Shown here one piece after another: positions 19,790 through 56,550 of a DNA stretch of 64,000 nt; position 1 is the stretch's first letter, and each line of letters begins with the position of its first letter. The notes below the pieces were generated by a model. That model was not told the DNA's origin. It did no database searches and was given only the letters and a program-made list of their open reading frames with translations. The translations under genes and the position numbers were made by a program. The DNA is from Asterias amurensis (Eukaryota > Echinodermata > Asteroidea > Forcipulatida > Asteriidae): the NCBI RefSeq assembly GCF_032118995.1, contig NC_092666.1:9684501-9748500 (forward strand). The letters are read 5' to 3'.

Positions 19790-20095
19790 AAAACTGCAAG
19801 GCCCCCGTGGATGAGAATCGAACCTCCCTCATTTCAGAGCAGTATTCACAAATTGTATTCAGTGATTTAAAAACAGCTGCCCGTGTACGACAGCAGGCCG
19901 GGTCCATTATTCATTCGGAATGAGATTTCTATTATTTATCCCAACACTGATTTTGAGCTTCAACGTGGAGAGGAAAAAAACTGCAAGCCCCCCGTGGATG
20001 AGAATCGAACCTCCCTCATTTTAGAGCAGTATTCACAAATTGTATTCAGTGATTTAAAAACAGCTGTCCCAGGGCGGGTCCATTATTACTTCGGG
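19790..20095. repeat. Outer end repeat of left arm, two units of ~185 bp
   Basis: Units carry CCCGTGGATGAGAATCGAAC and CACAAATTGTATTCAGTGAT at 19808 and again near 19993. The complement of the first word, GTTCGATTCTCATCC, resembles a tRNA B box. No cloverleaf is evident, so a SINE origin is only a suspicion. Confidence 0.75.
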
Positions 20096-20129
20096 TTGAG
20101 ATTTCTTCCCGTTCAAGAAATTCCTCACA

Positions 20130-20330
20130 TTGTTATTGGCCCAGATCCGCACAATGTTATTGGACAAGATTGTTACCAAACCAATTTAGTATAATGCATG
20201 CCAAATCGGCATTGATATGCAGATTTATCGTCTTTGCGCTTTTAACATAGAAAAGGACGCAGCAAGACCGCATGGTTTTAGTTCTACACACGCGGGGCGG
20301 CGGCGGACAACATGGCTACTCTTCACTTGG
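20130..20330 (+). promoter_or_regulatory. Possible promoter-like block in left arm
   Basis: Two inverted CCAAT boxes (TTATTGG, 20135-20170) are followed by a CpG-rich patch (CACGCGGGGCGGCGG) and CAACATGGCTACTC in good initiator context. The whole block is kept in the right arm (about 55985-56180). Composition stands out from the AT-rich arm. Promoter activity is inference. Confidence 0.3.
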
Positions 20331-20534
20331 CTGTATTTTGGACCTCGCGTTTCGGTTGAACTTTATCATACAAATTTCACTCTTTTATAATGTGAAACAA
20401 ATTGTATCAGTCAAATTGTAGTACTGAGAACAACACTACGACGTTCTGTAGATAAAAATGTACTCAAATTTGCAAAGAAGAAAGTGACTCTTGACATGAG
20501 GACTTTTGGTCAAGTATTTCACCCAAGCCTTTCT

Positions 20535-20795
20535 TTATGAGCACATCTCACAGTGGTCTAATTTTGTAGTCGAGTTTACAGCCCGGCTTGAGAACTCCCT
20601 CGGAGTTTTTCCCTCGGAGTTTTCGCTGGGCAGAGAATTCCTCCAAGTTGGACAGAACATTGTCGCCGGCGTACACAACCAAAACGCTGGTGGCATGGAC
20701 CAACTTTGATGTTGAGCTTGCGAGTAGAGCTGGAGAGGTCCAGGAGTTTGAACAATCTTCTGAAAACAACCCGAACTGTCTGAGGAATTGAACAT
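20535..20795 (-). CDS. 86-codon ORF conserved in both arms, function unknown
   Basis: The reading starts MFNSSDSSGCFQKIVQTPGP and ends TTKLDHCEMCS. The right arm holds the same length and frame at 55529-55789, with four residue changes. It reads outward, away from the spacer. I recognise no domain, signal peptide or membrane segment. All the coding-frame differences I traced change an amino acid, which argues against purifying selection. An overlapping + strand frame is also open, so this may be chance in a GC-richer block. Confidence 0.25.
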   Translation of the reverse strand: MFNSSDSSGCFQKIVQTPGPLQLYSQAQHQSWSMPPAFWLCTPATMFCPTWRNSLPSENSEGKTPREFSSRAVNSTTKLDHCEMCS

Positions 20796-20929
20796 TTAAA
20801 TCAACTCATTCTCCTGTTGAACTTTCGCTTTTTGCTTGCGAGCTCCGTCAAGGTTGGTGAGAGAAGCTCTATTGGAACTGAATTACATTGAAAAGAGGAC
20901 TTGATGTATTGAATTTGAGAACTGTTTAT

Positions 20930-21440
20930 TGTTGACACTTATTTTTGCTGGCTGTTGTCAGAACTTTAAAACTTTTATCTGTGGATTGTGTGGTGTGGGT
21001 GTGGCTACAACTTGCAAGTCGTCCAAGTGAAAAGGCAAGAACTTTAAAAGTGACCTTTGGTTTCGTGTTTCAAAACCGAATACATTTTTGCTGACTGTTG
21101 TCAGAACTCTGAAACTTTTATCTGTGGATTGTGTGGTATGGGTGTGGCTTCAAGTCGACCAAGTGACAAGACAACCAAGTGACAAGACAAGAACTTTAAA
21201 ATAGACTTTGGTTTTGTGTTTCAAAACCGAATACATTTTTGCTGACTGTTGTCAGAACTCTGAAACTTTTATCTGTGGATTGTGTGGTATGGGTGTGGCT
21301 TCAAGTCGTCCAAGTAACAAGACAACAACTTTAAAAGAGACTTTTGAACAAAACTGAACACATTTTTGCTGACTGTTGTCAGAACTTAAAACTTCTATCT
21401 GTGGATTGTGTGATATGGGTGTGGCTACAAGCATGTCGAC
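20930..21440. repeat. ~140-bp tandem repeat in left arm, about 4 units
   Basis: GCTGACTGTTGTCAGAAC recurs near 20950, 21090, 21241 and 21370. Each is followed by TTTTATCTGTGGATTGTGTG and GGGTGTGGCT. The right arm has about seven units. Confidence 0.88.
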
Positions 21441-22014
21441 CAAGTGGTAAGACAAGACAAGATCATTAAGATGACGTTAAGTGGTAAGTGAAAATCTAAC
21501 CCCGTTCTTTCCCAATAAGTAGCAGGTAACTTTTCTCGTACTTGTTGATGTTGTCTACAAATTTGGTCATTGGTGATGTCTCCTACTATTTTTCTCTGAG
21601 AGGATTTTCTTGGTTGTCGGGGCATTTTGGTCGTGGCCAGAGTGATGCATTGAAGTAAAATAGTTTCTCTTGGAAGATTTCCCAGTTTGGAAGAAGCGGA
21701 TGAGCATCTGTTGTTGTCATTTTAAATCTACACTTTGTCAAAATTAAATAATTAATTGGTCATAATTTTTTACAGATAGAGATCCTTTTGCACTATATGA
21801 AAAATAACAAAAATCACTTTAGTTCTCTATATAAAATTAAGGACAATAAGAAAATCATTTAAGGGTTTCTCTAGAAACAACAAACTTGTTTTCAAATACA
21901 TACATCTCACAGTTTTTCCTTCTAGAAAGACTCAATTGTGACAGTATTGTTATTAATGTTTACTGATAGTGTTTTCTGTTCTCGAAGTAAAAACCCCAAA
22001 ACCCTATAAAACCA
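21441..22014. other. Left-arm segment with module M1
   Basis: On the - strand it reads ATGCATCACTCTGGCCACGA, CCAAAATGCCCCGACAACC and ACAACATCAACAAGTACGAG. A diverged second copy is at 22930-23220. The short ORFs of the two copies share words such as QHQQV, but neither is convincingly coding. Confidence 0.5.
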
Positions 22015-22790
22015 AGCCCAATAAAGAGCATGAAAAACCGAGTAAGTTTGTGAATTATTTCTTTAAGTATATACATAGGCCTGCAAAAGCGATGAACCAT
22101 ATAATTTAAGGTTTGTGTAATTTAAAATAATTATCTGCTTTTTTCAGTTGGAAATTTGTTCAGTTGGCAATATTAAAATGGTTAAATTTAATTCAACATT
22201 TAATATTTCTGATGAATAATTTTATCATCTTTTTTGTATGTAAATAAATAAAATTGTGTGGTGGGAGGGGGAAGCCCAATAAAGAGCATGAAAAACCTGA
22301 GTAAGTTTGTGAATTATTTCTTAAACAAAAAAAGTATATGTATACATAGGCCTGCATTAGCGATGAACCATATAATTTAAGGTTTGTGTAATTTAAAAAT
22401 ATTATCTGCTTTTTTCCCTTCAAGATGGAAATTTGTTCAGTTGGCAATATTAAAATGGTTAAATTTAATTTAACATTTAATATTTCTGATGAATAATTTT
22501 ATCATCTTTTTTGTATGTAAATAAATAAAATTGTGTGGTGGGAGGGGGAAGCCAAATAAAGAGCATGAAAAACCTGAGTAAGTTTGTGAATTATTTCTTA
22601 TAACAAAAAAAGTATATGTATACATAGCCCTGCATTAGCGATGAACCATATTATTTAAGGTTTGTGTAATTTAAAAGATGGAAATTTGTTCAGTTGGCAA
22701 TATTAAAATGGTTAAATTTAATTTAACATTTAATATTTCTGATGAATAATTTTATCATCTTTTTTTGTATGTAGATAAATAAAATTGTGT
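22015..22790. repeat. ~280-bp AT-rich tandem repeat in left arm, three units
   Basis: AATAAAGAGCATGAAAAACC begins units at about 22019, 22276 and 22556. Each unit includes AGCGATGAACCATATAAT and ATTAAAATGGTTAAATTTAA. The right arm holds two units. Confidence 0.9.
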
Positions 22791-23892
22791 GTGTGTTGAC
22801 AGATAAAGTGCGCATCATAACACAACACAATCATCCCAAACTCAATTTTTAGGGTTTTATTCAACAGGAAATGCACAATGAGCAAAAAGAAAGGAGCCAG
22901 ACAAAAAGAGGAACAAAGAAGACACCCCCTAAAGTAAAAGGTTGAAGTTGGTATGTATAATGGTAAGTCGGTTAGAATAGAATAGGAAATGAATAGGCCT
23001 AGAACTTGTAAGCAAAAGTTTAACCCCAGATCTTAATAACAAGCAGGGTTCTGTTATTATTTGCCTCGGTACTTGTTGATGTTGTCTACTATTATTGTCA
23101 CTGGGGATGCCATCCATTTTTTATTTCTGAGAGAGCTTCTTGATGTCAGGGCATTTTGGTCGTAGCCAGAGTGATGCTTTTTTTTCTCTTGGAACTTTTC
23201 CTGGGTTTGGAAGAAACTGATGACTTTATTATGTTGTCATTGTACATTGGCATGATTAATTTGCTAATATTTAGCATAAACATGTTCACTTAGAGACCCT
23301 TTTGTCTTCTTAGTAATTATTAAAAGTAAAAAATTTAAAAAAAGCAATTTTTTTTTTTTTTTATTCTAAAAAGTACTCAAATTGGCCCAGAAGGGCAAAA
23401 AAAACCTTGGAAATTACAAATCAGTGCATGATTCAGAAACTGACTCAAGTTTTACTGTATCACTTTTTTCAAGTTTAACTTGGCACAAACAAAATGATTC
23501 TCCTCTTACATTGTTCCACAATAGTCATTAGTAATGAACCATGTCAACATGGAACATTTGCAAATGATTCTCCCCTTAAATTGCTCCACAATAGTAATTA
23601 GTATTGGACCATGTCAAAATGGAAAATTTGCAATGAGCACTAATCAATCAATGATTTATTTCAGTTAAAAATATCTAAATGATTAGTTTAGTTATGTTAA
23701 ATTAATCGTTTAATATTTCTGACGAATAAATTGTATTGATTGATTGTGATAAAAATTATCAGTCGGCATAGCTAGTTAGCTACACCCCCAAAACAAGTTT
23801 CCAAAACAAATATTTCTACGGCAGGCAGGCAAAGCGTTAAAGAAGACATTAAACAAAAAAGTAGAACAGGACATGAATAGGCCTAGAACTTT
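22791..23892. other. Left-arm segment with module M2 and AT-rich filler
   Basis: It includes the second copy of the GTACTTGTTGATGTTGTCTA / GGGCATTTTGGTCGT module. It also has a duplicated AATGATTCTCC...TTGTTCCACAATAGT block (23495 and 23565). AGGCCTAGAACTT occurs near 22998 and again near 23880 beside the minisatellite. Confidence 0.55.
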
Positions 23893-25458
23893 ACCTTCCC
23901 AACCAATAACCAACGTTTTCCTTCTCAACCAATAACCAACATTTCCCTTCCCAACCAATAACCAACGTTTTCCTTCCCAACCAATAACCAACGTTTTCCT
24001 TTTTAACCAATAACCAACATTTCCCTTCGCAACCAATAACCAACGTTTTCTTTCACAGCCAATAACCAACGTTTCCCTTCGCAACCAATAACCAACGTTT
24101 TCCTTCCCAACCAATAACCAACGTTTTCCTTCCCAACCAATAACCAAAGTTTCTCTTCACAGCCAATAACCAAAGTTTCCCTTCACAGCCAATAACCAAA
24201 GTTTCCCTTCACAGCCAATAACCAACGTTTTCCTTTGCAACCAATGACCAACGTTTCCCTTCCCAACCAATAACCAAAGTTTCCCTTCACAGCCAATAAC
24301 CAAAGTTTCCCTTCACAGCCAATAACCAACGTTTCCCTTCACAGCCAATAACCAACGTTTTCCTTTGCAGCCAATAACCAAAGTTTCCCTTCACAGCCAA
24401 TAGCCAAAGTTTCCATTCACAGCCAATAACCAAAGTTTCCCTTCACAGCCAATAACCAAAGTTTCCATTCACAGCCAATAACCAAAGTTTCCCTTCCCAA
24501 CCAAAACTAAAGTTTCCCTTCACGGCCAATAACCAACGTTTTCCTTCGCGGTCAATAACCAATGTTTTCCTTCGCAACCAATAACCAACGTTTCCCTTCG
24601 CAACCAATAACCAACGTTTCCCTTCACAGCCAATAACCAAAGTTTCCCTTCGCAACCAATAACCAACGTTTCCCTTAACAGCCAATAACCAACGTTTCCT
24701 TTCGCAACCAATAACCAACGTTTTTCTTCACAGCCAATAACCAAAGTTTCCCTTCGCAACCAATAACCAACTTTTTCCTTCACAGCCAATAACCAAAGTT
24801 TCCCTTCACAGCCAATAACCATGGTTTCCCTTCACAGCCAATAACCAACGTTTTTCTTCACAGCCAATAACCAAAGTTTCCCTTCGCAACCAATAACCAA
24901 CTTTTCCCTTCACAGCCAATAACCAAAGTTTCCCTCCACAGCCAATAACCATGGTTTCCCTTCGCAATCAATAACCAACGTTTCCCTTCCCAACCAATAA
25001 CCAACTTTTCCCTTCACAGCCAATAACCAAAGTTTCCCTCCACAGCCAATAACCATGGTTTCCCTTCACAGCCAATAACCAAAGTTTCCCTTCGCAATCA
25101 ATAACCAACGTTTCCCTTCACAGCCAATAACCAAAGTTTCCCTTCACAGCCAATAACCAAAGTTTCCATTCACAGCCAATAACCAAAGTTTCCATTCACA
25201 GCCAATAACCAAAGTTTCCCTTCCCAACCAAAACTAAAGTTTCCCTTCACGGCCAATAACCAACGTTTTCCTTCGCGGTCAATAACCAATGTTTTCCTTC
25301 GCAACCAATAACCAACGTTTCCCTTCGCGACCAATAACCAACGTTTCCCTTCGCGACCAATAACCAACGTTTCCCTTCACAGCCAATAACCAAAGTTTCC
25401 CTTCACAGCCAATAACCAAAGTTTCCCTTTGCTGCCAATAACCAACTTTTTCTTCCAA
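23893..25458. repeat. 26-bp minisatellite in left arm, about 60 units
   Basis: The unit is CTTCACAGCCAATAACCAAA plus GTTTCC, with sub-variants (CGCAACC or CCCAACC for CACAGCC; ACG or AAG). Three units make 78 bp, so translations show a 26-residue period and stay open in several frames. Confidence 0.95.
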
Positions 25459-25517
25459 CTAATCATCATAATTTTCCTTTATGTCAATAACACTATATTT
25501 TGTTTGTTTTCTTGCAG

Positions 25518-25619
25518 ATTGCACTCATGGGCACACGACGTCATACGTCGTGTGCCCACTGGCAATATTGAGTAGATGGAAGTTTGAACTTCCCCCCCGC
25601 AGGCAGGGCAAGAAACTTG
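25518..25619 (+). other. Exon-like module E1, left arm, with insertion
   Basis: It is bounded by TTTTCTTGCAG and GTAATG. The right-arm counterpart (50987-51015) is only 29 bp (ATTGCACTTCAGGCAAGGCA...). The left copy carries about 73 extra bases, including the hairpin GGGCACACGACG / CGTCGTGTGCCC. Confidence 0.5.
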
Positions 25620-26155
25620 GTAATGTATCCATTATGTTAAAAGTCACTTTTGACTGGAAATGAAATACCAAAGGAGAGCTTTTACACACAGTCCCTTACC
25701 GTTAGTACCCGTTAAAATAATTAGAAGAAGTCATACATTTTGTTAAAATCTTCCACACATTTGACTCAAAATTTTCAAAGGACTAACTAAACTGATTTCA
25801 CTAACTTCCTAAAGGTTATTGTGATTAGACAAATTTTGACGGCTTTCAAACTCCAAAAATAATAAAACTATTCTACCAACTCTCTCCCTCTCTCTCTCAT
25901 GACAAGTTTTTAGGATTTTTAACAATACAAACAGTGTGGGACTTTCGGGATGCCTGGTGGCAGCAGACTTACCAAGTAAAATCCATAGTTCTCAATAATG
26001 TGCGCATGCTCAGAACTACAATGGAAATTAACCTGGTAAGTCTGCTGCCGCCTAGTGTTGCAAAGTCTCTAAAAGGTATTGACCTGAAAATCTTTACAGT
26101 AGATCTGAATTCAACTTGATTGTTATTTGTCTTCATATTTTCTTTATTTTCACAG
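25620..26155. other. Intron-like spacer between E1 and E2, left arm
   Basis: AT-rich, with a CT microsatellite near 25885-25905 and an inverted pair GGTGGCAGCAGACTTACCA / TTAACCTGGTAAGTCTGCTG (25958-26048). The pair is probably a small fold-back element and is mirrored at about 50480-50580. Confidence 0.5.
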
Positions 26156-26234
26156 ATACCAGAGATGATGACCTACTCTTAATTGATGCAGCCTGGCACT
26201 GGCAGTTTGAACTTCATGCATGGCAAGATCTTGA
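26156..26234 (+). other. Exon-like module E2, left arm
   Basis: It is preceded by a T-rich tract with CACAG and followed by GTAATG. The frame reads LLLIDAAWHWQFELHAWQDL, clearly related to module E3 (LIDAAWQFGLQA). The right-arm copy (50270-50369) extends further 5' to AACTTCTG behind a CTTCAG acceptor. Confidence 0.45.
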
Positions 26235-26251
26235 GTAATGTATCAATTTAT

Positions 26252-26414
26252 GGCCCTTTCCGAAACCTCGGCTTTGGATTTGGCTCAGGCTAGCTTGGCT
26301 CGCAGTTGTTTTGACAACTTTGTGCTAGCTTTGCGTATGTGCCAAGGGCTTCAAATGAGAGTTCGGAGCCTGAAGCCAAATCCAAAGCCGAGGTCATGGT
26401 TTTGAAAAGGGCCT
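26252..26414. mobile_element. Family C MITE in left arm (mirrored at 50091)
   Basis: GGCCCTTTCCGAAACC at the left and GGTTTTGAAAAGGGCC at the right. It is present at the same place in both arms, so it predates the duplication. Confidence 0.85.
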
Positions 26415-26613
26415 ATGTTACAAGAAAAAATTTGATTAGAATTCAACTACCAAAAAGAGTTTTTACAAATTAATTTGTACAAATCTCTCACCCAATCTGC
26501 TTGGATGTTTTATATATTACTCACAATGGGATGCTGTCATTTTAATATATAAATCTCCCACACAAATGGACAAGAAATAATTTTCAAAGGAAGAACCTAG
26601 CTGATGAAATTTC

Positions 26614-26916
26614 TTAAAGGCAGTGGACACTATTGGTATTACTCAAAATAATTATTATCACAAAAAACTTACTAGGTAACACGCAATGGGGAGAGGTTGG
26701 TAGTATAAAACATCGTGAGAAACGGCCCCCTCTGAAGTAATGTAGTTTTCTAGAACTCGTGTGACGAGGGTGTTTTTTTCTTTCATTATTATTTCGCAAC
26801 TTCGACAACCAATTGAGTTAAATTTTTCCCAGGTTAGTTATTTTATGCATATATTGAGATACACCAAGCGGGAATACTGGTCTTTGACAATAACCATTAG
26901 TGTCCATTGTCTTTAA
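26614..26916 (+). mobile_element. Family A MITE found only in the left arm
   Basis: TTAA at 26614-26617 and 26913-26916 bracket AAGGCAGTGGACACTATTGG...CATTGTCTT. The right arm has the unoccupied site, with a single TTAA at 49892-49895 in matching flanks. The insertion therefore followed the arm duplication. Confidence 0.92.
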
Positions 26917-27135
26917 AGATGTTAGTTTGTTGTTTGAAAAGTTTGGAGTGAATTTGAGCAGTCCGAAAATGTTACTTTACTTGAAGTTATTCTACAAAGT
27001 TGTTTGGAAAAAATGATGCATACAACAATCTCACAGAAATTGGACTGAAAGGTCTTAAAACAGCAATGAGACTGAGTTTAACTTAGCTGGTAAACATGAT
27101 TTGTAACTAAAAACTTTTCTTGTTACTGTCTTCAG

Positions 27136-27224
27136 AACTTCTTCATTTTGCACAAACTGATACCAGAGGTGATACTCATTGATGCAGCTTGGCAGTTTGG
27201 ACTTCAGGCCTGTCCAGGAATTCG
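27136..27224 (+). other. Exon-like module E3, left arm
   Basis: An acceptor (TTACTGTCTTCAG) and a donor (GTAATG) bound 89 bp. The only open frame reads NFFILHKLIPEVILIDAAWQ then FGLQACPGI, ending in phase 2. Joined to E4 it completes an Arg codon and continues in frame to E4's stop. The right arm keeps the exon at the same length and frame (49560-49648, 3 substitutions). I do not recognise the peptide. Confidence 0.45.
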
Positions 27225-27239
27225 GTAATGTTTTAAGAT

Positions 27240-27562
27240 TTAAAGGCACCGTACATTATTGGTAATTACTAAAAATAATTGTTAGCATATAAATTTACTT
27301 GGTAACAAGCAATGAAGAGCTGTTGTGAGAAAACCCTCCCTCTGAATTATAACATAGTCTTCGAGAAAGAAGTAATTTTCTACTGAAATAAATTTGAAAA
27401 TGATTTCGAGACCTCAGAATTAGATTTTGAGGTCCCGAAATCAAGCATCTGAAAGCACACAAGGGTGGTTTTTCTTCCATTATTATCTTGCAAATTTAAC
27501 GACCATTTACATTCAATTTTCTTTTCTTTATGCTTTATACCAATAATGTCCAGTGTCTTTAA
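27240..27562 (+). mobile_element. Family A MITE, left arm (mirrored at 49138)
   Basis: TTAA-bounded; AAGGCACCGTACATTATTGG at the left and CAATAATGTCCAGTGTCTT at the right. It is shared with the right arm. Confidence 0.85.
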
Positions 27563-27885
27563 AGTTAGAAGGCAAAGTTTGAGAGGAAATGAACCAAAAC
27601 ATAAAAGGTTTCATGAACTGTCTGTCTGCCAAAGCTGCTTGGATATTTTATTGGTACAAACGATTGGAGGTAATCATCATTGAAAAATAAATATTTAAAA
27701 AGGAAAATCTTGTTATTGGACTGAAACTCTTCACGGGGGCAACTAAGCTAACTTCACTTCATTTGGGATGCTTGCTAGAAGAAAAAAATATGGAATTTTT
27801 ATTGTTTTGAAAATGTTTCCCAAAATCTGAGAATTATTCTGCAAAAATTGTTAAATCATTTTTACTTTGTTTCTTTGCCCTGCAG

Positions 27886-27952
27886 TTTTCTGGTGCATGA
27901 TGGTGATCTAAGTGAATCTGACTGTGAATTACATCGATGTTCGTGGTCTTGA
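27886..27952 (+). other. Exon-like module E4, left arm
   Basis: It lies behind a strong acceptor (TTTGTTTCTTTGCCCTGCAG). After one base that completes the split codon it reads FLVHDGDLSESDCELHRC, then SWS and TGA. Four more copies exist: two in the spacer and two in the right arm. Confidence 0.45.
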
Positions 27953-27977
27953 CAAACGCGCCTACACTGAGGAAGCC

Positions 27978-28300
27978 TTAGGCACTGAACACTATTGGTA
28001 AGTACTCAAAAGAATTGTTAGCATAAAACCTTGTGAGAAACGTTGTGGGCTTCCTCTGAAGTAATGTACTTTTCGAGAAAGAAGTAATTTTACGCTGAAA
28101 TATTATTTGAATTTGGTTTGGAGACCTCAGAATTAGTTTTTGAGGTCGCAAAACAAGCATCTGAAAGCACACAACTTTGTGTGACATCTCTCCAATTATT
28201 ATCTCGCAACTTCGATGACTATAGAGCTCAAATTTTCACAGGTTGTTGAGAAACACCAATTGAGGAGACTGTTCACTAACAATTACAGAAGGTGCCCATT
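27978..28300 (+). mobile_element. Family A MITE, left arm (mirrored at 47570)
   Basis: TTAGGCACTGAACACTATTGG opens it and ACTAACAATTACAGAAGG closes it; both ends are worn. It directly follows the E4 module. Confidence 0.75.
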
Positions 28301-28661
28301 CTTGCTTCTGAAAAGCTTTTGGTAGTTGACAAACAACCCGTTCTTTTCCGAAACAACTCAAATGAGATTTACACACTATGCTACCGCAAAACTCACCTCA
28401 TCCCACACCATGCAAAAAGATTTAAATCCTACTCGTTGAAAGTGATCAAACAATAAACAGGTCCGTTGTTTCCATCCGCAGATTGGACGAGTCTTGGAAG
28501 ATGACATCAGCCTGAGATGACAACAGAGATGCACGGAAGACTCTGGCTGGATGAGGATCAAGAGGACAAGAGCTGAAGACTGACTGGAGCAAGTCTAATC
28601 AAGATGTCGATCAACCATCATCTGGATCACGAGGGCGCTCTTTATCCGGAAATGGCAACCA
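28301..28661. other. Unrecognised left-arm segment, conserved in right arm
   Basis: It contains an acceptor-like TTTCCATCCGCAG at about 28482 followed by a purine-rich stretch (GATGACAACAGAGATGCACG). It is mirrored at 47200-47570. Confidence 0.4.
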
Positions 28662-28847
28662 GGACCCAATTTTATAAAGCCAGTAAGCAGAAAAAGTTGC
28701 TAAGCACAGAATAGTATTACTCGGCAGAAACAGGTTACCAGTCAAAAACTTGTATTTACTGTGGCTGGTGCCCCTCTCAATTTTTGCTGAGCATAGAAAT
28801 TCGTCACCAAGAAGTATTTTCTGCTAATAGCTTTATGAAATTGGGCC
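28662..28847. mobile_element. Family B MITE, left arm (mirrored at 47008)
   Basis: GGACCCAATTTTATAAAGCC and TTTATGAAATTGGGCC ends, with GCTAAGCACAGAATA inside. Confidence 0.8.
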
Positions 28848-28942
28848 TGCACCTTGGGCTGTATCTGAATTGGCCACCAATGATTTTGGCTGTAGCCGCC
28901 ATAGCTGTAGCTGCAAATTCCGACACAGCCATGTAGACCCAT

Positions 28943-29119
28943 AGGCCCTTTTTGAAAAGACGGCTTTGACTTTGGATTCGGCTCAGGCTATATAGCTTGG
29001 CTCCGTGGGTTGATTTGACAATTGCGCATGCTTTGTGTAACTGCGCCTCAGAGCTTCAGACGAGAGAACGGAGCCTCAAGCCAAACCCAAAGCCGAAGCC
29101 GTGGTTTGGAAAAGGGAGC
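28943..29119. mobile_element. Family C MITE, left arm (mirrored at 46697)
   Basis: AGGCCCTTTTTGAAAAGACGG and the opposite end CCGTGGTTTGGAAAAGGG. Confidence 0.8.
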
Positions 29120-29362
29120 TAGATATTTATCAAGTTGTGACCATCTTGTTACCCAATTTATATAACTATAGCCAAACCGAGGCTGGGATAAAAAATAGTC
29201 TGGCCCCTCAATCTGAATGATCTGAATGAGAATTAGACATTTGATAATAACATTGTGAATACATGTGTACAAGGAACTAGATGGTCATATAAATCAAGAT
29301 AGAAGTCTGGATGATCTATGATTAGTTTGTCTAAATGTAATTTGTAGTTTTTTAAGATTTAT

Positions 29363-29742
29363 TTAAGACACTGGACACTATTGGTAATTCAGTCTTCTTG
29401 GTGTATCTCAACATATGCATCATAAAATATAAAAAAATTGAAAATTTGAACTCAATATTTGGCGTAGTTGCGAGATAATATGTGAAGAAAAAACACCCTT
29501 GTCACACAAACTTGTGTGCTTTCAGATCAGATGCTTGATTTCGGGACCTCAGAATCTATCTCTTAGGTCTCGAAATCAAACTTGTGGAAAATTACTTTTT
29601 TTTTTCGAAAACTATGTTATTTCAGAGGGAGCTGTTTCTGACAATGTTTTATACTATCAACAGCTCTCCATTACTTGTTACTGCGTAAGGTTTCATGCGA
29701 ATAATTATTTTGAGTGAGTACCAATAGTGTCACTGCCTTTAA
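29363..29742 (-). mobile_element. Family A MITE, left arm (mirrored at 46082)
   Basis: TTAA at both ends. The interior reads in the opposite direction to the copy at 9494, with CACTGGACACTATTGGTAAT first and CCAATAGTGTCACTGCC last. Confidence 0.85.
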
Positions 29743-29815
29743 GAAAGTAGTCAGGTGGAGGAATGGGGAGGATGCTATTATTTGGTGCTAAGTACTTTGT
29801 CTGTAATATCTGAGT

Positions 29816-30137: not shown

Positions 30138-30198
30138 TATACCTCATGTGCTCTATGATTATACTTGTTTGATATTATGCATTTCTGCAATGCAAGTC

Positions 30199-30315: not shown

Positions 30316-30328
30316 CTTGTTAAACTTT

Positions 30329-46462: not shown

Positions 46463-46696
46463 TAAATCTTTAAAAACTACAAATTACATTTAGACAAACT
46501 AATCATCGATCATCCAGACCTTTATCTTGATTTATATGACCATCTAGTTCCTTGCATGCACAATTTTATTATCAAATGTCTAATTCTCATTCAGATCATT
46601 CAGATTGAGGGGCCAGACTATTTTTGATCCTAGCCTCGGTTTGGCTATAGTTATATAAATTGGGTAACAAGATGGTCACAACTTGATAAATATCTA

Positions 46697-46873
46697 GCTC
46701 CCTTTTCCAAACCACGGCTTCGGCTTTGGGTTTGGCTTGAGGCTCTGTTCTCTCGTCTGAAGCTCTGAGGCGCAGTTACACAAAGCATGCGCAATTGTCA
46801 AATCAACCCACGGAGCCAAGCTATATAGCCTGAGCCGAATCCAAAGTCAAAGCCGTCTTTTCAAAACGGGCCT
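46697..46873. mobile_element. Family C MITE, right arm
   Basis: Mirror of 28943-29119. Confidence 0.8.
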
Positions 46874-47007
46874 ATGGGTCTACACGGCTGTGTCAGAACT
46901 GGCGGCTACAGCTACGGCTCTGGCTAGCTTTTGATACTATCATGCATTGAAGTATAGGACTCACAGCCAAAATCATTGGCCGCCAATTCAGATACAGCCC
47001 AAGGTGC
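46874..47007. other. Right-arm segment longer than its left counterpart
   Basis: GGCGGCTACAGCTACGGCTC and TGGCCGCCAATTCAGATACA suggest a further small TIR element. It is whole here and internally deleted in the left arm (28860-28935). A related sequence lies at 6080-6190. Confidence 0.5.
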
Positions 47008-47196
47008 AGGCCCAATTTCATAAAGCTATTAGCAGAAAATACTACTTGGCGACAAATTTCTATGCTTAGCAAAAATTGAGAGGGGCACCAGCCACAGTAA
47101 ATGCAAGTTTTTGGCGGGTAACCTGTTTCTGCCGAGTCATACTATTCTGTGCTTAGCAACCATTTCTGCTTACTGGCTTTATAAAATTGTGTCCTG
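47008..47196. mobile_element. Family B MITE, right arm
   Basis: Mirror of 28662-28847. Confidence 0.8.
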
Positions 47197-47569
47197 GTTG
47201 CCATTTCCGGATAAAGAGCGCCCTCGTGATCCAGATGATGGTTGATCGACATCTTGATTAGACTTGCTCCAGTCAGGCGTTAGCTCTTGTCCTCTTGATC
47301 CTCAATCCAGCCAGAGTCTTCCGTGCATCTCTGTTGTCATCTCAGGCTGATGTCATCTTCCAAGACTCTTGTCCAATCTGTGGATGGAAACAACGGACCT
47401 GTTTATTGTTTGATCACTTTCAACGAGTAGGATTTGAATCTTTTTGCATGGTGTGGGTTGAGGTGAGGTTTGCGGTAGCATCGCGTGTTAATCTCATTTG
47501 AGTTGTTCCGGAAAAGAACGGGTGGTTTGTCAACCACCAAAGCTTTTCAGAGCCAATACTACTTTCACT
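47197..47569. other. Unrecognised right-arm segment
   Basis: Mirror of 28301-28661; no gene recognised. Confidence 0.4.
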
Positions 47570-47937
47570 GGGCACCTTCTGTAATTGTTAGTGAACAGTC
47601 TTCTCAATTGGTGTGTCTCAAAAACCTGTGAAAATTTGAGCTCAATAGTCATCGAAGTTGCGAGATAATAATGGGAGAGATGTCACACAAAGTTGTGTAC
47701 TTTCAGATGCTTGATTTCGGGACCTTAAAATCTAATTCTGAGGTCTCCAAACCAGATTCAAATAATATTTCAGTGTAAAATTACTTCTTTCTCGAAAAGT
47801 ACAATACTTCAGAGGAAGCCCACAACGTTTCTCACAAGGTTTTATACTATCAACAGCTCTCCTATGCTTGTTACCAAGTAAGGTTTTATGCTAACAATTA
47901 TTTTTGAGTACTTACCAATAGTGTCCAGTGCCTTTAA
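47570..47937 (-). mobile_element. Family A MITE, right arm, more intact than its left mirror
   Basis: It ends CCAATAGTGTCCAGTGCC with TTAA at 47934-47937. The core CTGAGGTCTCC is retained, and the family TACTATCAACAGCTCTCC stretch is deleted in the left copy. Confidence 0.8.
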
Positions 47938-47957
47938 GGCTCCTTCCCTGTAGGTGT

Positions 47958-48027
47958 TTATCCAGACCACGAACATCGATGTACTTCACCGTCGGGTTCA
48001 CTTAGATCACCATCATGCACCAGAAAA
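47958..48027 (-). other. Exon-like module E4, right arm copy 2
   Basis: Acceptor TTTCTTTGCCCTGCAG on the - strand; the frame reads FLVHDGDLSEPDGEVHRC, SWSG and TAA. The stop is shifted by one codon relative to the other copies. Confidence 0.45.
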
Positions 48028-48345
48028 CTGCAGGGCAAAGAAACAAAGTAAAAATGGTTATTAATTTTTGTAGACTCATTTTCAGATTTTGGAAAGCATT
48101 TTGGGAACTAATAAAAATTCCATACAAAACTTTCTGGCAAGAATCCCAGATGAAGTTAAATTAGCCGAGTTGCTCCTGTGAACAATTTCAGTCCAATAAC
48201 AAGATTTCCCTTTTGGAATATTTCTTTTTTAATGATAGTTCCAATCGTTTGTACCAATTAAATATCCAAGCAGCTTAGGCCGACAGACAGTTTAGGAAAC
48301 CTCTCATTTTTTGGTTTATTTCCTCTCAAACTTTGCCTTTTAACT

Positions 48346-48728
48346 TTAAAGACACTGGACACTATTGGTAATTGTCAAAGACCAGTATTCTCACTTAGTG
48401 TACTGTATCTCAACATAAGCACAAAGTAAAAAACAATGTGAACATTGGAATTCAATTGGTCGTTAAATTTGCAAGATAATAATGGCAGAAAAAACACTGA
48501 TGTCACACAAAGTCATGTGGTTTCAGATGCTTGATTTTGAGAACTCAAAATCTAATTCCGAGGTCTCGAAATCAAATTCAAATATTTCAGAGGAAAATTA
48601 CGTCGCTTCAGAGGGAGCCATGTCTCAAAATGTTTTATACTATCAACAGCTCTTGTATGCTTGTTACCAAGTAAGATTTTATGATAACAATATTTTTTAG
48701 TACTTATGAATAGTGTCCAGTACCTTTA
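48346..48728 (-). mobile_element. Family A MITE of the duplicated right-arm unit
   Basis: It begins TTAAAGACACTGGACACTAT. Together with the adjacent E4 flank it forms an extra ~790-bp unit not present in the left arm. Confidence 0.85.
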
Positions 48729-48752
48729 CGGCTCCTTCCCTGTAGGTGTTTG

Positions 48753-48819
48753 TCAAGACCACAAACATCGATGTAATTCACCGTCAGATTCACTTAGATC
48801 ACCATCATGCACAAGAAAA
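48753..48819 (-). other. Exon-like module E4, right arm copy 1
   Basis: 67 bp as in the left arm; the frame reads FLVHDGDLSESDGELHRC, LWS and TGA. The acceptor is CTTTACCCTGCAG. Confidence 0.45.
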
Positions 48820-49137
48820 CTGCAGGGTAAAGAAACAAAGTAAAAATGGTTTAACAATTTTTGCTGAATAATTCTCAGATTTTGGGAAGCATTTTCAAAA
48901 CAATAAAAATTCCATAATTTTTTTTCTAGCAAGCATCCCAAATGAAGTGAAATTGGCTTAGTTGCCCCCGTGAAGAATTTCAGTCCAATAACAAGTTTTC
49001 CCTTTTTGAATATTTCTTTTTCAATGATGATTACCTCCAATCCTTTGTATCAATAAAACGTCCAAGCAGCTTAGGCTGACAGTTCAGGAAACCTTTTATG
49101 TTTTGGTTTGATTCCTCTCAAACTTTGCCTCCTAACT

Positions 49138-49543
49138 TTAAAGACACTGGACACTATTGGTATAAAGCATAAAGTAAAAAAAAGTAAAAATTTGAATTTA
49201 ATTGGTCGTTAAATTTGCAAGATAATAATGGAAGAAAAACCACCCTTGTCACATAAAGTTGTGTGCTTTCAGATGCTTGATTTCGGGACCTCAAAATCTA
49301 ATTCTGAGGTCTCAAAATCATAATTCAAATGGGAAATTTGAATATTTATTATGGGAAATTTGAATATTTATATTAATTTAAATATCACTGGGAAATTACT
49401 TCTTTCTCGAAGACTATGTTATAATTCAGAGGGAGGGTTTTCTCACAATGTTTGTTTACTATCAACAGCTCTTCATTGCTTGTTACCAAGTAAATATGCT
49501 AACAATTATTTCAGTAATTACCAATAATGTACGGTGCCTTTAA
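49138..49543 (-). mobile_element. Family A MITE, right arm, with small internal duplication
   Basis: Mirror of 27240-27562. GGGAAATTTGAATATTTAT occurs twice in succession near 49330-49370. Confidence 0.85.
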
Positions 49544-49559
49544 ATCTTAAAAACATTAC

Positions 49560-49648
49560 CGAATTCCTGGACAGGCCTGAAGTCCAAACTGCCAGGCTGC
49601 ATCAATGAGTATCACCTCTGGTATCAGTCTGTACAAAATGAAGAAGTT
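49560..49648 (-). other. Exon-like module E3, right arm
   Basis: Same acceptor, donor, length and frame as the left arm; it reads NFFILYRLIPEVILIDAAWQ then FGLQACPGI. Two of the three substitutions change residues (HK to YR). Confidence 0.45.
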
Positions 49649-49891
49649 CTGAAGACAGTAACAAGAAAAGTTTATAGTTACAAATCATTTTTTACCAGCT
49701 AAGTTAAACACAGTCTTATTGCTGTTTTAAGAACTTTCGGTCCAATGCCTGTGAGATTAATTTGTGACTAAAATTTCCATTTTTTTGCGTCAGTTTTTCC
49801 CAAACAACTATGTAGAATAACTTCCAGTTAAAGAAACGTTTTCGGACTGCTCAAATTCACTCCAAACTTTTCAAACAACAAACTAACATCT

Positions 49892-49895
49892 TTAA
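49892..49895. other. Empty TTAA target site
   Basis: The flanks match those of the left-arm MITE at 26614-26916, with a single TTAA and no element. Confidence 0.9.
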
Positions 49896-50090
49896 GAAAT
49901 TACATCAGCTAGGTTCTTCTTTTGAATATTATTTCTTGTCCATTTGTGTGGGAGATTTACATGTTAAAATGACAGCATCCCATTGTGAGTACTATATAAA
50001 ACATCCAAGCAAATTGGGTGAGAGATTTGTACAAATTTGTAAAAACTCTTTTGGTAGTTGAATTCTAATCAAACTTTATCTTGTAACATA

Positions 50091-50252
50091 GGCCCTTTTC
50101 GAAACCATGACCTCGGCTTTGGATTTGGCTTCATGCTCTGTCCTCTCATCTGAAGCCCTTGGCACGTACGCAAAGCTAGTGCAAAATTGTCAAAACTACT
50201 GCGGGCCAAGCTAGCCTGAGCCAAATCCAAAGCCGAGGTTTCGGAAAGGGCC
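50091..50252. mobile_element. Family C MITE, right arm
   Basis: GGCCCTTTTCGAAACCATGA to GGTTTCGGAAAGGGCC; mirror of 26252-26414. Confidence 0.85.
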
Positions 50253-50269
50253 ATAAACTGATACATTAC

Positions 50270-50369
50270 TCAAGATCTTGCCATATGCATGAAGATCAAA
50301 CTGCCAGTGCCAGGCTGCATCAATTAAGAGTAGGTCATCATCTCTGGTATCTCTGCAAGTACAGAAGTT
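50270..50369 (-). other. Exon-like module E2, right arm
   Basis: The CTTCAG acceptor and GTAATG donor bound 100 bp. The frame reads NFCTCRDTRDDDLLLIDAAW then HWQFDLHAYGKIL. Its 5' AACTTCT start matches E3, supporting a shared origin. Confidence 0.45.
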
Positions 50370-50986
50370 CTGAAGACAAGTCAAAATAAATTTGAACTCG
50401 GATCTACTGTAAAGATTTTCAGGTCAATACCTTTGAGAGTATTAGTTTGGACTATTGTTTCCAATGGGAGACTTTGTAATGCTAGGTTGCAGCAGATTTA
50501 CCAGGTTAATTTCCATTGTAGTTCTGAGCATGCGCACATTACTAAGAACTATGGATTTTACTTGGTAAGTCAGCTGCCACCAGCGTCCTGAAAGTCCCCA
50601 TTGTTTATTATTAAAAATTCTTAACAACTTGTCATGAGAGAGAGAGGGAGAAAGTTGATAGAATAATTTTTACTATTTTTGAAGTTTGAAAGCCATCAAA
50701 ATTTGTCTAATCACAAACACTTTTAGGAAGTTTGTGAAATCAGTTTTGTTACTCCTTTGACAATTTTGAGACAAATGCATGTAGGAGATTTAATTTGTGT
50801 ATGACTTCTTTTAATTATTGGATTGAAAGCTAAGGCCACCTACCCTATTCATTATTCTTTTAATTATTTTGATATATTATGATATGAGGTATTATGATAA
50901 GCAGCTTAGGGTAAGGGATAGCATGTAAAAGCTCTCCTTTGGTATTTCGATCAAAAGTTACTTTTTAAAATAAATTGAAACATTAC

Positions 50987-51015
50987 CAAATTTCTTGCCT
51001 TGCCTGAAGTGCAAT
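50987..51015 (-). other. Exon-like module E1, right arm, short form
   Basis: 29 bp between TTTTCTTGCAG and GTAATG, reading IALQARQEI. It aligns with the end of E3 (GLQACPGI). Confidence 0.4.
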
Positions 51016-51079
51016 CTGCAAGAAAACAAACAAAATAATATGGTGTTATTGACTGTAAAGAAAAAATATCGTGATTAAT

Positions 51080-52095
51080 TGGAAGAAAAAGTTGGTTATT
51101 GGCTGCAAAGGAAAACTTTGGTTATTGGCTGTGAAGGGAAGCGTTGATTATTGGCTGTAAAGGGAAACTTTGGTTATTGGCTGTGAAGGGAAACTTTGGT
51201 TAGTGGCTGCGAAGGGAATTTTCTGGTTATTTGCTGCGAAAGGAAACTTTGGTTATTGGTTGGGAAGGAAAACTTTGGTTATTGGCTGTGAAGGTAAATT
51301 TTGGTTAGTGGCTGCGAAGGGAATTGTTGGTTATTTGCTGCGAAAGGAAACTTTGGTTATTGGCTGCGAAGGGAAACTTTGGTTATTGGCTGCGAAGGGA
51401 AACTTTGGTTATTGGCTGCGAAAGGAAACTTTGGTTATTGGCTGCGAAGGGAAACTTTGGTTATTGGCTGTGAAAGGAAACGTTGGTTATTGGCTGCGAA
51501 GGGAAACGTTGGTTATTGGCTGTGAAGGGAAACTTTGGTTATTGGCTGTGAAGGGAAACTGTGGTTATTGGCTGTGTACGGAAACTTTGGTTATTGGTTG
51601 GGAAGGGAAACTTTGGTTATTGGTTGCAAAAGGAAACGTTGGTTATTGGTTGCAAAAGGAAACGTTGGTTATTGGTTGCGAAAGGGAAACGTTGGTTATT
51701 GGTTGCGAAGGGAAACGTTGGTTATTCGTTGCGAAGGGAAACGTTGGTTATTGGTTGCGAAAGGAAACGTTGGTTATTGGCTGCGAAGGGAAACTTTGGT
51801 TATTGGCTGCGAAGGGAAACTTTGGTTATTGGCTGCGAAGAGAAACTTTGGTTTTTGGCTGCGAAGGGAAACTTTGGTTATTGGCTGTGAAGAGAAACTT
51901 TGGTTATTGGTTGCAAAGGGAAATGTTGGTTATTGGCTGTGAAGGGAAACTTTGGTTATTGGCTGCGAAGGGAAACTTTAGTTATTGGCTGTAAAGAGAA
52001 ACTTTGGTTATTGGTTGCGAAGGGAAACATTGGTTATTGGTTGCGAAGGGAAACGTTGGTTATTGGTTGCGAAGGGAAACGTTGGTCATTTGTTA
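51080..52095. repeat. 26-bp minisatellite in right arm, about 39 units
   Basis: GGAAACTTTGGTTATTGGCT plus GCGAAG units, the complement of the left array. The 274-codon ORF here is a by-product of the 78-bp (3 x 26) period. Confidence 0.95.
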
Positions 52096-53127
52096 AGTTC
52101 TAGGCCTATTTATGTCCCAGTATACTTAATGTCTTCTTCAACGCTTTGCCTGCCTTCTGTACAAATATTTGTTTTGGAAACTTGTTTGGGGGGTGTAGGC
52201 TAGCTGTGTCGACTGATAATTTTTATCACAATCAATCAATAAAATGTATTCGTCAGAAATATTAAACGATTAATTTAACATATCTAAATTAATCATTTAG
52301 ATATTCCTAACTGAAAGAAATTGTTGATTGATTAATGCTTATTGCAAATGTTCCATATCGACATGGTCCGATACTAATTACTATTATGGAGCAATTTAAG
52401 GGGAGAATCATTTCTTGTTGTTGCCAAGTTCATCTTGAAAAAGTGTTTAGTCAGTTTGTGAATCCTGCACAGACTGATTTTTGATTTTCAAGGTTTTTTT
52501 GGGCCAATTTTTATTACTTTTGGGATTTTTTTTATTTATTTTTTATTTTTTTTATTTATGTTTTACTTTTAACAATGTCTAATTATACTAAGAGGTTTAA
52601 CTTAATGAAAAGACAAAAAGGTCTCTAAGTGAACTTGTTTATGCTAAATATTAGCAAATTAATCATGCCAATGTAAAATGACAACATACTAAGGTCATCA
52701 GTTTCTTCCAAACCAAGGAAAAGTTCCAAGAGAAAAAATAGCATCACTCTGGCCACGACCAAAATGCCCTGACATCAATAAACTCTCTCAGAAATAAAAA
52801 ATTTGGATGGCATCCCATTGACAATATTAGTAGACAACATCAACAAGTACCGAGGCAAATAATAACAGAACCCTGCTTGTTATTGAGATATAAGGTTAAA
52901 CTTTTGCTTACAAGTTCTAGGCCTATTCATTTCCTATTCTATTCTAACCGACTTACCATTATACATACCAAATTCAACCTTTTACATCAGGGGGTTTATT
53001 CTTTGTTCCTCTTTTTGTCTTGCTCCTTTCTTTTGATTTTTGCTCATTGTGCGCTCCCTGTTGAATAAAACCCTAAAAACTGAGTTGGGATGATTGTGTT
53101 GTGTTATGATGCGCACTTTATCTGTCA

Positions 53128-53340
53128 AGTTGTTTTGAATTGATGCAATTAACTCATCAGAAATATTAACGATTAATTTAGCTCATCTAAATTAAACATT
53201 TTAATATTCCTTACTGAATTTAATCTCATCAACTAAGAAGTGCTTGTTGCATAATTTCAATCTTATTTTGTTTTACACTAATTAGGAGTCGCTTAAAAGA
53301 GAGATGGATTCTGTTTTGCAGAGTAGAATTGAATCTCCGC
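53128..53340. other. Right-arm-only segment of about 215 bp
   Basis: It lies between TTATCTGTCAAG and the CCACACAATTTTATT array; the left arm joins these directly. It contains a diverged relative of the ~280-bp unit (CATCAGAAATATTAACGATT), so the left arm may have lost it by recombination. Confidence 0.7.
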
Positions 53341-53895
53341 CCCCCTCCCCCAACCACACAATTTTATTTATTTACATACAAAAAAGATGATAAAATTATT
53401 CATCAGAAATATTAAATGTTAAATTAAATTTAACCATTTTAATATTGCCAACTGAACAAATTTCCATCTTGAAGGGAGAAAAGCGGATTTTTTTTTTAAA
53501 TTACACAAACCTTAAATAATATGGTTCATCGCTATTGCAGGCCTATGTATACATATACTTTTTTTTGTTTAAGAAATAATTCACAAATTTACTCAGGTTT
53601 TTCATGCTCTTTATTTGGCTTCCCCCCCCCCCCCCACCACACAATTTTATTTATTTACATACAAAAAAAATGATAAAATTATTCATCAGAAATATTAAAT
53701 GTTAAATTAAATTTAACCATTTTAATATTGCCAACTGAACAAATTTCCATCTTGAAGGGAAAAAAGCAGATAATTCTTTTCAATTACACAAACCTTAAAT
53801 TATATGGTTCATCGCTAATGCAGGCCTATGTATATACTTAAAGAAATAATTCACAAACTTACTCGGTTTTTCATGCTCTTTATTGGGCTTGGTTT
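53335..53895. repeat. ~280-bp AT-rich tandem repeat, right arm, two units
   Basis: CACACAATTTTATTTATTTA starts at about 53355 and 53637; each unit ends in the GGTTTTTCATGCTCTTTATT motif. Confidence 0.9.
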
Positions 53896-54449
53896 TATAG
53901 GGTTTTGGGGTTTTTACTTTGAGAACAGAAAACACTATCAGTAAACATTAATAACAATTTTGTCACAATTGAGTCTTTCTAGAAGGAAAAACTGTGAGAT
54001 GTTTGTATTTGAACACAAGTTTGTTGTTTCTAGAGAAACCCTTAAATGATTTTCTTATTGTCCTTAATTTTATATAGAGAACTAAAGTGATTTTTGTTAT
54101 TTTTCATATAGTGCAAAAGGATCTCTATCTGTAAAAAATTCTGACCAATTAATTAATTAATTTTGACAAAGTGTAGATTTAAAATGACAACAACAGATGC
54201 TCATCCGCTTCTTCAAAACTGGGAAATCTTCCAAGAGAAACTATTTTACTTCAATGCATCACTCTGGCCACGACCAAAATGCCCCGACAACCAAGAAAAT
54301 CCTCTCAGAGAAAAATAGTGGATGACATCACCAATGACCAAATTTGTTGACAACATCAACAAGTACGAGAAAAGTTACCTGCTACTTATTGGGAAAGAAT
54401 GGGGTTAGATTTTCACTTACCACTTAACGTCATCTTAATGATCTTGTCT
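53896..54449. other. Right-arm module M1 segment
   Basis: Mirror of 21441-22014; module M2 is mirrored at about 52700-52990. Confidence 0.55.
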
Positions 54450-55385
54450 TACCACTTGGTCGACATGCTTGTAGACACACCCATACCACACAATCCACAG
54501 ATAAAAGTTTTAAGTTCTGACAACAGTCAGCAAAAAAAAAAAACAGTTTTGAAACACAAAACCAAAAGTCACTTTAAAAGTTCTTGCCTTTTCACTTGGA
54601 CGACTTGTAGCCACACCCATACCACACAATCCACAGATAAAAGTTTAAGAGTTCTGACAACAGTCAGCAAAAATGTGTTCAGTTTTGAAACACAAAACCA
54701 AAAGTCTTTTTAAAAGTTGTTGTCTTGTCACTTGGACGACTTGTAGCCACACCCATACCACACAATCCACAGATAAAAGTTTTAAGTTCTGACAACAGTC
54801 AGCGAAAAAAAAAAATCAGTTTTGAAACACAAAACCAAAAGTCACTTTAAAAGTTCTTGCCTTTTCACTTGGACGACTTGTAGCCACACCCATACCACAC
54901 AATCCACAGATAAAAGTTTTAGAGTTCTGACAACAGTCAGCAAAAATGTATTTGGTTTTGAAACACAAAACCAAAGGTCACTTTTAAAGTCATGAAAGTT
55001 CTTGTCTTTTCACTTGGACGACTTGTAGCCACACCCATACCACACAATCCACAGATAATAAGTTTAAGAGTTCTGACAACAGTCAGCAAAAATGTATTTG
55101 GTTTTGAAACACAAAACCAAAGGTCACTTTTAAAGTCATGAAAGTTCTTGTCTTTTCACTTGGACGACTTGTAGCCACACCCATACCACACAATCCACAG
55201 ATAATAGTTTAAGAGTTCTGACAACAGTCAGCAAAAATGTATTTGGTTTTGAAACACAAAACCAAAGGTCACTTTTAAAGTCATGAAAGTTCTTGTCTTT
55301 TCACTTGGACGACTTGTAGCCACACCCATACCACACAATCCACAGATAAAAGTTTTAAAGTTCTGACAACAGCCAGCAGAAATAA
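54450..55385. repeat. ~140-bp tandem repeat, right arm, about seven units
   Basis: GTTCTGACAACAGTCAGC recurs near 54515, 54652, 54787, 54926, 55070, 55216 and 55360. The last three units are almost identical, pointing to recent expansion. Confidence 0.9.
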
Positions 55386-55528
55386 GTGTCAACAATAAAC
55401 AGTTCTCAAATTCAATACATCAAGTCCTCTTTTCAATGCAATTCATTTTCAATAGAGCTTCTCTCACCAACCTTGACGGAGCTCGCAAGCAAAAAGCGAA
55501 AGTTCAACAGGAGAATGAGTCGATTTAA

Positions 55529-55789
55529 ATGTTCAATTCCTCGTACAGTTCTGTTTGTTTTCAGAAGATTGTTCATACTCCTGGACCTCTCCAGCTCTAC
55601 TCGCAAGCTCAACATCAAAGTTGGTCCATGCCACCAGCGTGTTGGTTGTGTACGCCGGCGACAATGTTCTGTCCAACTTGGAGGAATTCTCTGCCTAGCG
55701 AAAACTCCGAGGGAAAAACTCCGAGGGAGTTCTCAAGCCGGGCTGTAAACTCGACTACAAAATTAGACCACTGTGAGATGTGCTCATAA
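55529..55789 (+). CDS. 86-codon ORF conserved in both arms, right copy
   Basis: MFNSSYSSVCFQKIVHTPGP to TTKLDHCEMCS. It differs from the left copy at D6Y, G9V, Q16H and F38C. See the left copy for the doubts about coding status. Confidence 0.25.
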   Translation: MFNSSYSSVCFQKIVHTPGPLQLYSQAQHQSWSMPPACWLCTPATMFCPTWRNSLPSENSEGKTPREFSSRAVNSTTKLDHCEMCS

Positions 55790-55984
55790 GAAAGGCTTGG
55801 GTGAAATTCTTGACCAAAAGTCCATCATGTCAACAGTCACTTTCTAGTTGCGAATTTAGGTACATTTTTACCAACAGAATGTCGTAGTGTTGTTCTCAGT
55901 ATTACAATTGACTGATACATTTTGCTTCACATTAAAAAGAGTGATTTGTATGATAAAGTTCAACTGAAACGCGAGGTCCAAAAT

Positions 55985-56180
55985 ACAGCCAAGTGAAGAG
56001 TAGCCATGTTGTCCGCCGCCGCCTCGTGTGTAGAACTAAAACCATGCGGTCTTGCTGCGTCCTTTTCTATGTTAAAAGCGCAAAGACGATAAATCTGCAT
56101 ATCAATGCCGATTTGGCATGCATTATACTGAATTGGCTTGGAAACAATCTTGTCCAATAACATTGTGCGGATCTGGGCCA
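55985..56180 (-). promoter_or_regulatory. Possible promoter-like block in right arm
   Basis: Mirror of 20130-20330; both CCAAT boxes (CCAATAACA) and the GCCGCCGCC patch are preserved. Confidence 0.3.
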
Positions 56181-56227
56181 ATAACAATGTGCGGAATTTC
56201 TTGAACGGGAAGAATCTCAACCTGGAG

Positions 56228-56550
56228 GACTAATGGACCCGCCCTGGGGCAGCTGTTTATAAATCACTGAATACAATTTGTGAATACTGCTCTAAAATGA
56301 GGGAGGTTCGATTCTCATCCACGGGGGCCTTGCAGTTTTTCCTCTCCACGTTGAGACTAAAAGCGTGTGTAATTTTCAGTGTTAAGATAAAACAAAATAA
56401 ATAATAGAAATCTCGACCCGAATGAATAATGGACCCGCCCTGTTGTCTTACACGGGCAGCTGTTTTTAAATCACTTAATACAATTTGTGAATACCGCTCT
56501 AAAATGAGGGAGGTTCGATTCTCATCCACGGGGACCTTGCATTTTTTTTT
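56228..56550. repeat. Outer end repeat of right arm, two units of ~206 bp
   Basis: GGTTCGATTCTCATCCACGG occurs at 56306 and 56512. Similarity to the left arm stops near 56548 at TTGCATTTTTTTT. Confidence 0.75.

Follow-up and report, generated by a model that had tools for sequence, protein, structure and literature searches.

How the giant inverted repeat in a 64,000-nucleotide stretch of contig C19 of the starfish Asterias amurensis (C19:9,684,501–9,748,500; this whole stretch is called the window) came about is the question raised by this locus. The initial annotation had offered three readings, namely a structural variant, a sex-linked palindrome or a large fold-back element. Judged from sequence comparison, a structural origin by duplication fits best of the three. 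The most likely explanation, to which we assign a probability of roughly 70%, is that the structure is an inverted segmental duplication (low-copy repeat) of one copy of a dispersed family, that its breakpoints lie at satellite DNA, and that each arm contains a probable structured-RNA segment. The inverted repeat is genuine and is an ordinary kind of structure. The predicted RNA core, with its conserved one-strand fold, is the more interesting result, and would surprise a specialist.

Self-BLAST of the window gave mirror-ordered minus-strand matches between 19,789–31,028 and 44,778–56,547, as had been read by eye from the sequence. Pairwise alignment of the left arm (L) with the right arm (R) identified 851 differences in 10,154 aligned columns (91.6% identity). 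When three tandem arrays were left out, 559 of 7,592 columns differed (92.6% identity); the 26-bp array was 89.7% identical between the arms. The median was 5 differences per 100 columns (75 intervals), corresponding to about 95% identity, and four adjoining intervals with 23–57 differences appear misaligned next to the 26-bp array. The identity of about 97% claimed previously holds locally, with three or fewer differences in 23 of the 75 intervals, but overstates the similarity of the arms as a whole. The alignment contained 95 gap events in total, with indels of up to 790 bp. Segmental duplications are at least 1 kb long with about 90% identity or more, and the two arms exceed 11 kb with 92.6% identity outside the arrays. 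A dispersed repeat of about 385 bp is nested several times in the arms. It occurs in the window at 9491–9862, 12326–12702, 29362–29742 and 58108–58788 (an inverted pair) and elsewhere, and 38 further places in the genome were among the matches listed.

An assembly artefact, in which two alleles or a chimeric path had been put into one contig, would produce a similar arrangement. According to passages of the assembly report, the A. amurensis genome was assembled from HiFi reads with hifiasm and purge_dups, and the mean read length of 12.5 kb is below the length of the spacer (PMC10625585), a point in favor of such an error. However, the divergence between L and R, about 5% with large indels, is about five times the heterozygosity of 0.96% given for a different study's sample in the relevant portion of PMC11090083. 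In addition, the window is without N, and the outer flanks share no match of at least 500 bp, the sole exception being a dispersed-repeat pair inside the right flank. The longest exact repeats in the window, 460 bp in direct orientation and 146 bp in inverted orientation (30,164/45,483), are far shorter than the reads. Because of this divergence and the shortness of the exact repeats, we consider an artefact very improbable; two alleles in one contig, which had been named as an outcome that would overturn the inverted repeat, appear unlikely from the same comparison.

A third, partly diverged copy of the arm (T) is located 0.6 Mb away on C19, at about 10,345,107–10,355,002, in the orientation of R. 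T is colinear with the window from 19,583 to about 31,085 and begins beside a satellite array of its own. The inner arm piece (28,200–31,030) had long matches at a minimum of three sites, each of them on C19, namely L, R and T (C19:10,345,162–10,347,536). This search covered the best 40 of 21,505 candidates and was crowded by the 385-bp dispersed repeat. The inner ends of L, R and T each contain the first part of a repeat resembling a miniature inverted-repeat transposable element (MITE); R and T are cut at different points within it, the inner edge of R lying about 24 bp inside. At the outer end, L and T share about 200 bp past the edge of R, out to 19,583, and the outer edges are therefore ragged. 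As these flanking sequences are common to the copies, we take L, R and T to be duplicates of a single chromosomal segment. The 127 bp at the outer extreme of arm L (19590–19716) recur at about 11 further genomic sites with 72–84% identity, apparently as a separate small repeat.

Distances among the three copies differ from one part of the arm to another. Between 19,950 and 21,640 L, R and T are equidistant, with 67 (L–R), 61 (L–T) and 64 (R–T) differences in 1,520 columns and 30, 33 and 27 private changes. Between 29,225 and 30,280 T is far off, with 51 (L–R), 150 (L–T) and 145 (R–T) differences in 1,016 columns and 26, 21 and 120 private changes. Exchange of T with the ancestor of L or R, i.e. 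gene conversion, would explain this patchwork.

Relatives of the arm were also found on other contigs. For the outer piece (19,590–21,030), with all 22 candidates scored, relatives were identified at C5:20.148 Mb (83% identity) and at C18:13.666 Mb, C18:12.819 Mb, C5:2.967 Mb and C7:12.191 Mb (69–73%), as well as small fragments elsewhere. With at least eight copies of the core within the outer piece and at least three places for the inner piece, the repeat is low in copy number. The C5 copy is piecewise colinear with 19,768–30,983 and contains its own 26-bp array, and in a C18 copy colinearity runs from 20,070 to 27,207 or further, close to the end of the sequence examined. The arm thus appears to belong to an old dispersed family of non-coding repeats of about 11 kb. 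Protein-coding arms were considered and rejected, as a six-frame Pfam scan of arm L identified no domain at E 0.05. Open frames in the 26-bp array are apparent effects of the array, and the lone Pfam hit within it (SufE) is confined to 18 residues, no single stretch of which passes by itself. An open frame near the C5 relative (L036:907–1989, minus strand) resembles, by eye, what we take to be a fibrinogen-related protein. The two C18 relatives, at 12.819 Mb (minus strand) and 13.666 Mb (plus strand), are in opposite orientation 0.85 Mb apart, recalling L and T; their mutual identity is 90% over about 1.9 kb and 96% around the core.

Dispersal of the arm family favors an alternative in which L and R are two separate insertions, in opposite orientation and beside a satellite array, of one large non-autonomous mobile element, as does the position of the inner end of the C5 copy, about 25 bp from the junction of L, R and T with the MITE-like repeat. 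However, L, R and T share DNA past the ends defined by the C5 copy, including the MITE-like repeat in all three and 19,583–19,716 in L and T. Moreover, the two ends of the arm share no direct or inverted match of at least 500 bp, and the homology of the C18 copies fades. A target duplication of the whole structure was not found above control: two possible left edges gave longest matches of 5 and 6 bp, and matches of at least 5 bp were present in 174 of 200 random flank pairs. We therefore regard two independent insertions as unlikely. A sharply bounded mobile unit was suggested by the ends of the C5 copy but not by those of the C18 copies, and was rejected.

The missing target duplication also counts against movement of the entire 36.8 kb as a single unit, a giant fold-back transposon. 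Long inverted arms flanking a non-coding middle resemble such an element, which carries inverted repeats to both of its ends together with a target-site duplication. Here the outer ends are ragged, arm L is without a Pfam domain, and T is without a partner arm in the 46 kb examined. A single inverted arm pair around a spacer was seen, the other relatives having been examined in part. The fold-back reading, one of those initially proposed, is extremely improbable.

Satellite S accounts for 12.6 kb of the 13.7-kb spacer. It forms a tandem array with a main period of 48 bp, and 32,100–44,777 contains 182 near-palindromic monomers when up to 6 substitutions are allowed, in agreement with the initial annotation, which had described the spacer as satellite built from short palindromes. 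Satellite S was found on at least eight contigs with at least 350 matches, among the best 30 of 421 candidates. It lies within a few bases of three of the six arm ends, i.e. the outer end of L and the inner ends of R and T. As several arm ends abut this hairpin-forming satellite, breaks or template switching within it probably led to the duplications, one of them inverted. A repeat copy on C19 would have been duplicated more than once together with neighboring small repeats, giving T as well as the oppositely oriented pair L and R. The satellite would then have expanded independently, and the arms would have drifted to about 5% divergence while patches were exchanged with T.

Satellite arrays were rejected as a general seat of inverted arms. 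In 40-kb samples of five other satellite loci (C6, C7, C20 and two on C19), no inverted self-match above about 400 bp, the size of the dispersed repeat, was listed. T is one of these loci, another carries a direct tandem duplication, and neither arrangement is seen in the remaining three. The tandem duplication (C19:6,622,200–6,643,300) consists of satellite S and a 30-bp minisatellite block, with 95% identity over 5.7 kb and a period of about 10 kb. No title on this sequence was listed in searches of the literature on starfish satellites, echinoderm inverted repeats or MITE-type satellites.

A 333-nt core in each arm stands out as a conserved block in an alignment of eight copies, consisting of both arms and six further genomic copies. 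The plus strand of the L core has a predicted folding energy of −133.9 kcal/mol compared to −96.5 ± 5.6 kcal/mol for 100 shuffled sequences (z = −6.6), whereas the other strand has a z of −0.9. In all eight copies z was between −3.8 and −7.2 for the plus strand and between 0 and −1.4 for the other strand (200 shuffles each), and for no copy was any of the 200 plus-strand shuffles as stable. A stable fold on one strand that is kept across diverged copies, as expected of a functional RNA, is thus present in 8 of 8 copies. The consensus fold contains a closing stem and three hairpins with 94 pairs. Pairing was retained in 98.0% of 736 cells, compared to 42–48% when the structure was slid. Four G-U pairs are identical in all eight copies, and invariant columns are more common among paired positions (153 of 228) than among unpaired positions (53 of 105; p = 0.005, using the fold of L itself and five lineages).

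DNA palindromes of the MITE type fold well on both strands. When arm L was scanned in 150-nt segments, 18 of 191 had a z below −3 on some strand, and most of these were low on both strands. The segment at 20,550–20,699 was the clear one-strand case (−5.8 versus +0.5), and four weaker segments were lopsided (−3.0 to −3.9 versus −1.1 to −1.8). Rfam 15 contained no family matching any part of the window at E 1; the best hit overlapping the core had an E of 2.3 and scored 17.1 bits, the gathering score being 97. With a covariance model built on the first two hairpins, only five known copies were identified at E < 0.01 in 24 sequences (292 kb), the next hits having E values of 0.05 and 0.17. The cores of L and R face each other across the satellite, and each probably acts as a structured RNA that would be read inward to the spacer. 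A more specific proposal, which we put forward tentatively and with somewhat less than even confidence, is that each arm encodes an undescribed structured RNA of about 333 nt (three hairpins and a closing stem) whose fold has been kept by selection in at least eight loci. This RNA might be a small-hairpin-RNA precursor or a stable RNA, and may have spread with an 11-kb non-coding locus acting as a low-copy mobile unit.

Several results weigh against one part or another of an inverted segmental duplication with satellite breakpoints and an RNA core. The outer ends of R and T do not abut satellite, and the inner end of L is about 1 kb from it. The C5 and C18 relatives are without satellite motifs, among those motifs searched. 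The main satellite block shares about 2–3% of 20-mers with arrays at other loci, including that of T, and there is therefore no sign of the satellite travelling with the arms; co-movement was rejected, and the arrays appear to be locus-specific by this measure. Homology of the two C18 copies fades with no sharp stop, as judged by eye, so the ends of the repeat unit are unsure. The search with the inner piece did not pick up the corresponding part of the C5 relative, and copy numbers are therefore lower bounds. As for the core, changes on both sides of a pair are few (8 cells in 5 of 94 pairs). The count of doubly changed pairs was reached by 23 of 500 shuffles and that of pair types by 153 of 500, while the covariation score exceeded all 500 shuffles, although related copies inflate such scores. 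The core is diverged by 18–20% among distant copies compared to 19–29% for the flanks, a modest gap only; between L and T the values are 3.3% and 3.5–5.3%, and between the two C18 copies the core (4.4%) is not less diverged than the flanks (0.6–5.4%). In one of the C18 copies the third hairpin is incomplete.

Limited covariation, and a core whose conservation in several comparisons exceeds that of its flanks little or not at all, would also be expected if the fold were a decayed DNA palindrome without RNA function, and other parts of the arm do fold well on both strands in the manner of MITE palindromes. Folding of a single strand in 8 of 8 copies and the four G-U pairs that are the same in all of them argue against a palindrome, which we consider rather unlikely although a serious competitor.

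Large inverted repeats invite inversion and conversion. With L and T oppositely oriented at a distance of 0.6 Mb, a 0.6-Mb inversion could be tested for directly in starfish populations. Should the core be a working RNA, starfish would have a multi-copy structured RNA family without an Rfam relative, with a copy number that is changing by segmental duplication.

Table 1. Repeats, predicted RNA cores and satellite blocks of the C19 locus (window positions).
Feature	Position	Strand	Remarks
Arm L	19583..31006	+	Homology with R starts at 19,789, with third copy T at 19,583
Arm R, inverted copy of L	44778..56547	-	Self-BLAST and pairwise alignment
Predicted structured-RNA core of arm L, 333 nt	20539..20871	+	Conserved, strand-specific fold
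Predicted structured-RNA core of arm R	55453..55785	-	First two hairpins also matched by covariance model
26-bp minisatellite in arm L	23890..25450		Also in R and the C5 relative
26-bp minisatellite in arm R	51008..52095		Self-BLAST, pairwise alignment
About 790 bp present in R, missing from L	47957..48747		Part of a tandem pair, 78% identity
MITE-like element with inverted ends, whole beside L	31008..31254		Judged by eye in the sequence and the alignment
Spacer DNA beside arm L	31255..31985		No match at the T locus (hits of at least 60 bp at T beyond 24.5 kb)
Satellite S, near-palindromic monomers of about 48 bp	32130..44777	+	Main block in a single orientation
Small cluster of satellite S adjoining arm L at its outer edge	19397..19581	+	
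Degenerate repeat D, distantly satellite-like	31980..32072	-	
Degenerate repeat D left of arm L	18448..18801	+	

The inverted repeat is flanked by a DYRK1A-matching stretch (window 2069–2371, plus strand) and by a 502-codon open frame for a GT92-family glycosyltransferase (window 60584–62092, minus strand; Pfam PF01697), the protein being 96% identical to one of Asterias rubens.

Among known systems, mammalian sex-chromosome palindromes likewise have long inverted arms around a spacer. Their arms are more than 99% identical (PMC8981503), a level attributed to gene conversion, whereas identity between the starfish arms is about 95%. The candidate sex region published for the starfish, as given in part of PMC11757944, is at 7–12 Mb of chromosome 10, and the window is on C19, assuming that contig numbering is ordered by size. 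The sex-linked palindrome of the initial annotation is thus not supported. The core resembles the structured RNAs and microRNA precursors of Rfam in its stable hairpins, conserved arms and variable loops, although it matches none of those families. In sea urchin, the SpTransformer genes offer an echinoderm parallel of segmental duplications that have tandem repeats at their edges and have been ascribed to local instability; in the portions of that account bearing on this point, the duplications are 4.3 kb, contain immune genes and are associated with dinucleotide and trinucleotide repeats, whereas the starfish arms are non-coding by Pfam and are associated with a 48-bp satellite (PMC10887614). 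The closest described case found is the inverted low-copy repeat of 14.6 kb at the Anopheles gambiae 2Rj breakpoint, of which the following rests on excerpts of the original description (PMC1952172). The 2Rj arms are more than 99% identical, compared to about 95% here with a spacer that is mostly satellite, and the 2Rj module sits at both breakpoints of an inversion. Both have large inverted arms (5.3 kb in 2Rj) around a spacer (4 kb in 2Rj), and the mosquito repeat is likewise a non-coding patchwork of repeats that was judged to be a segmental duplication rather than a transposon.

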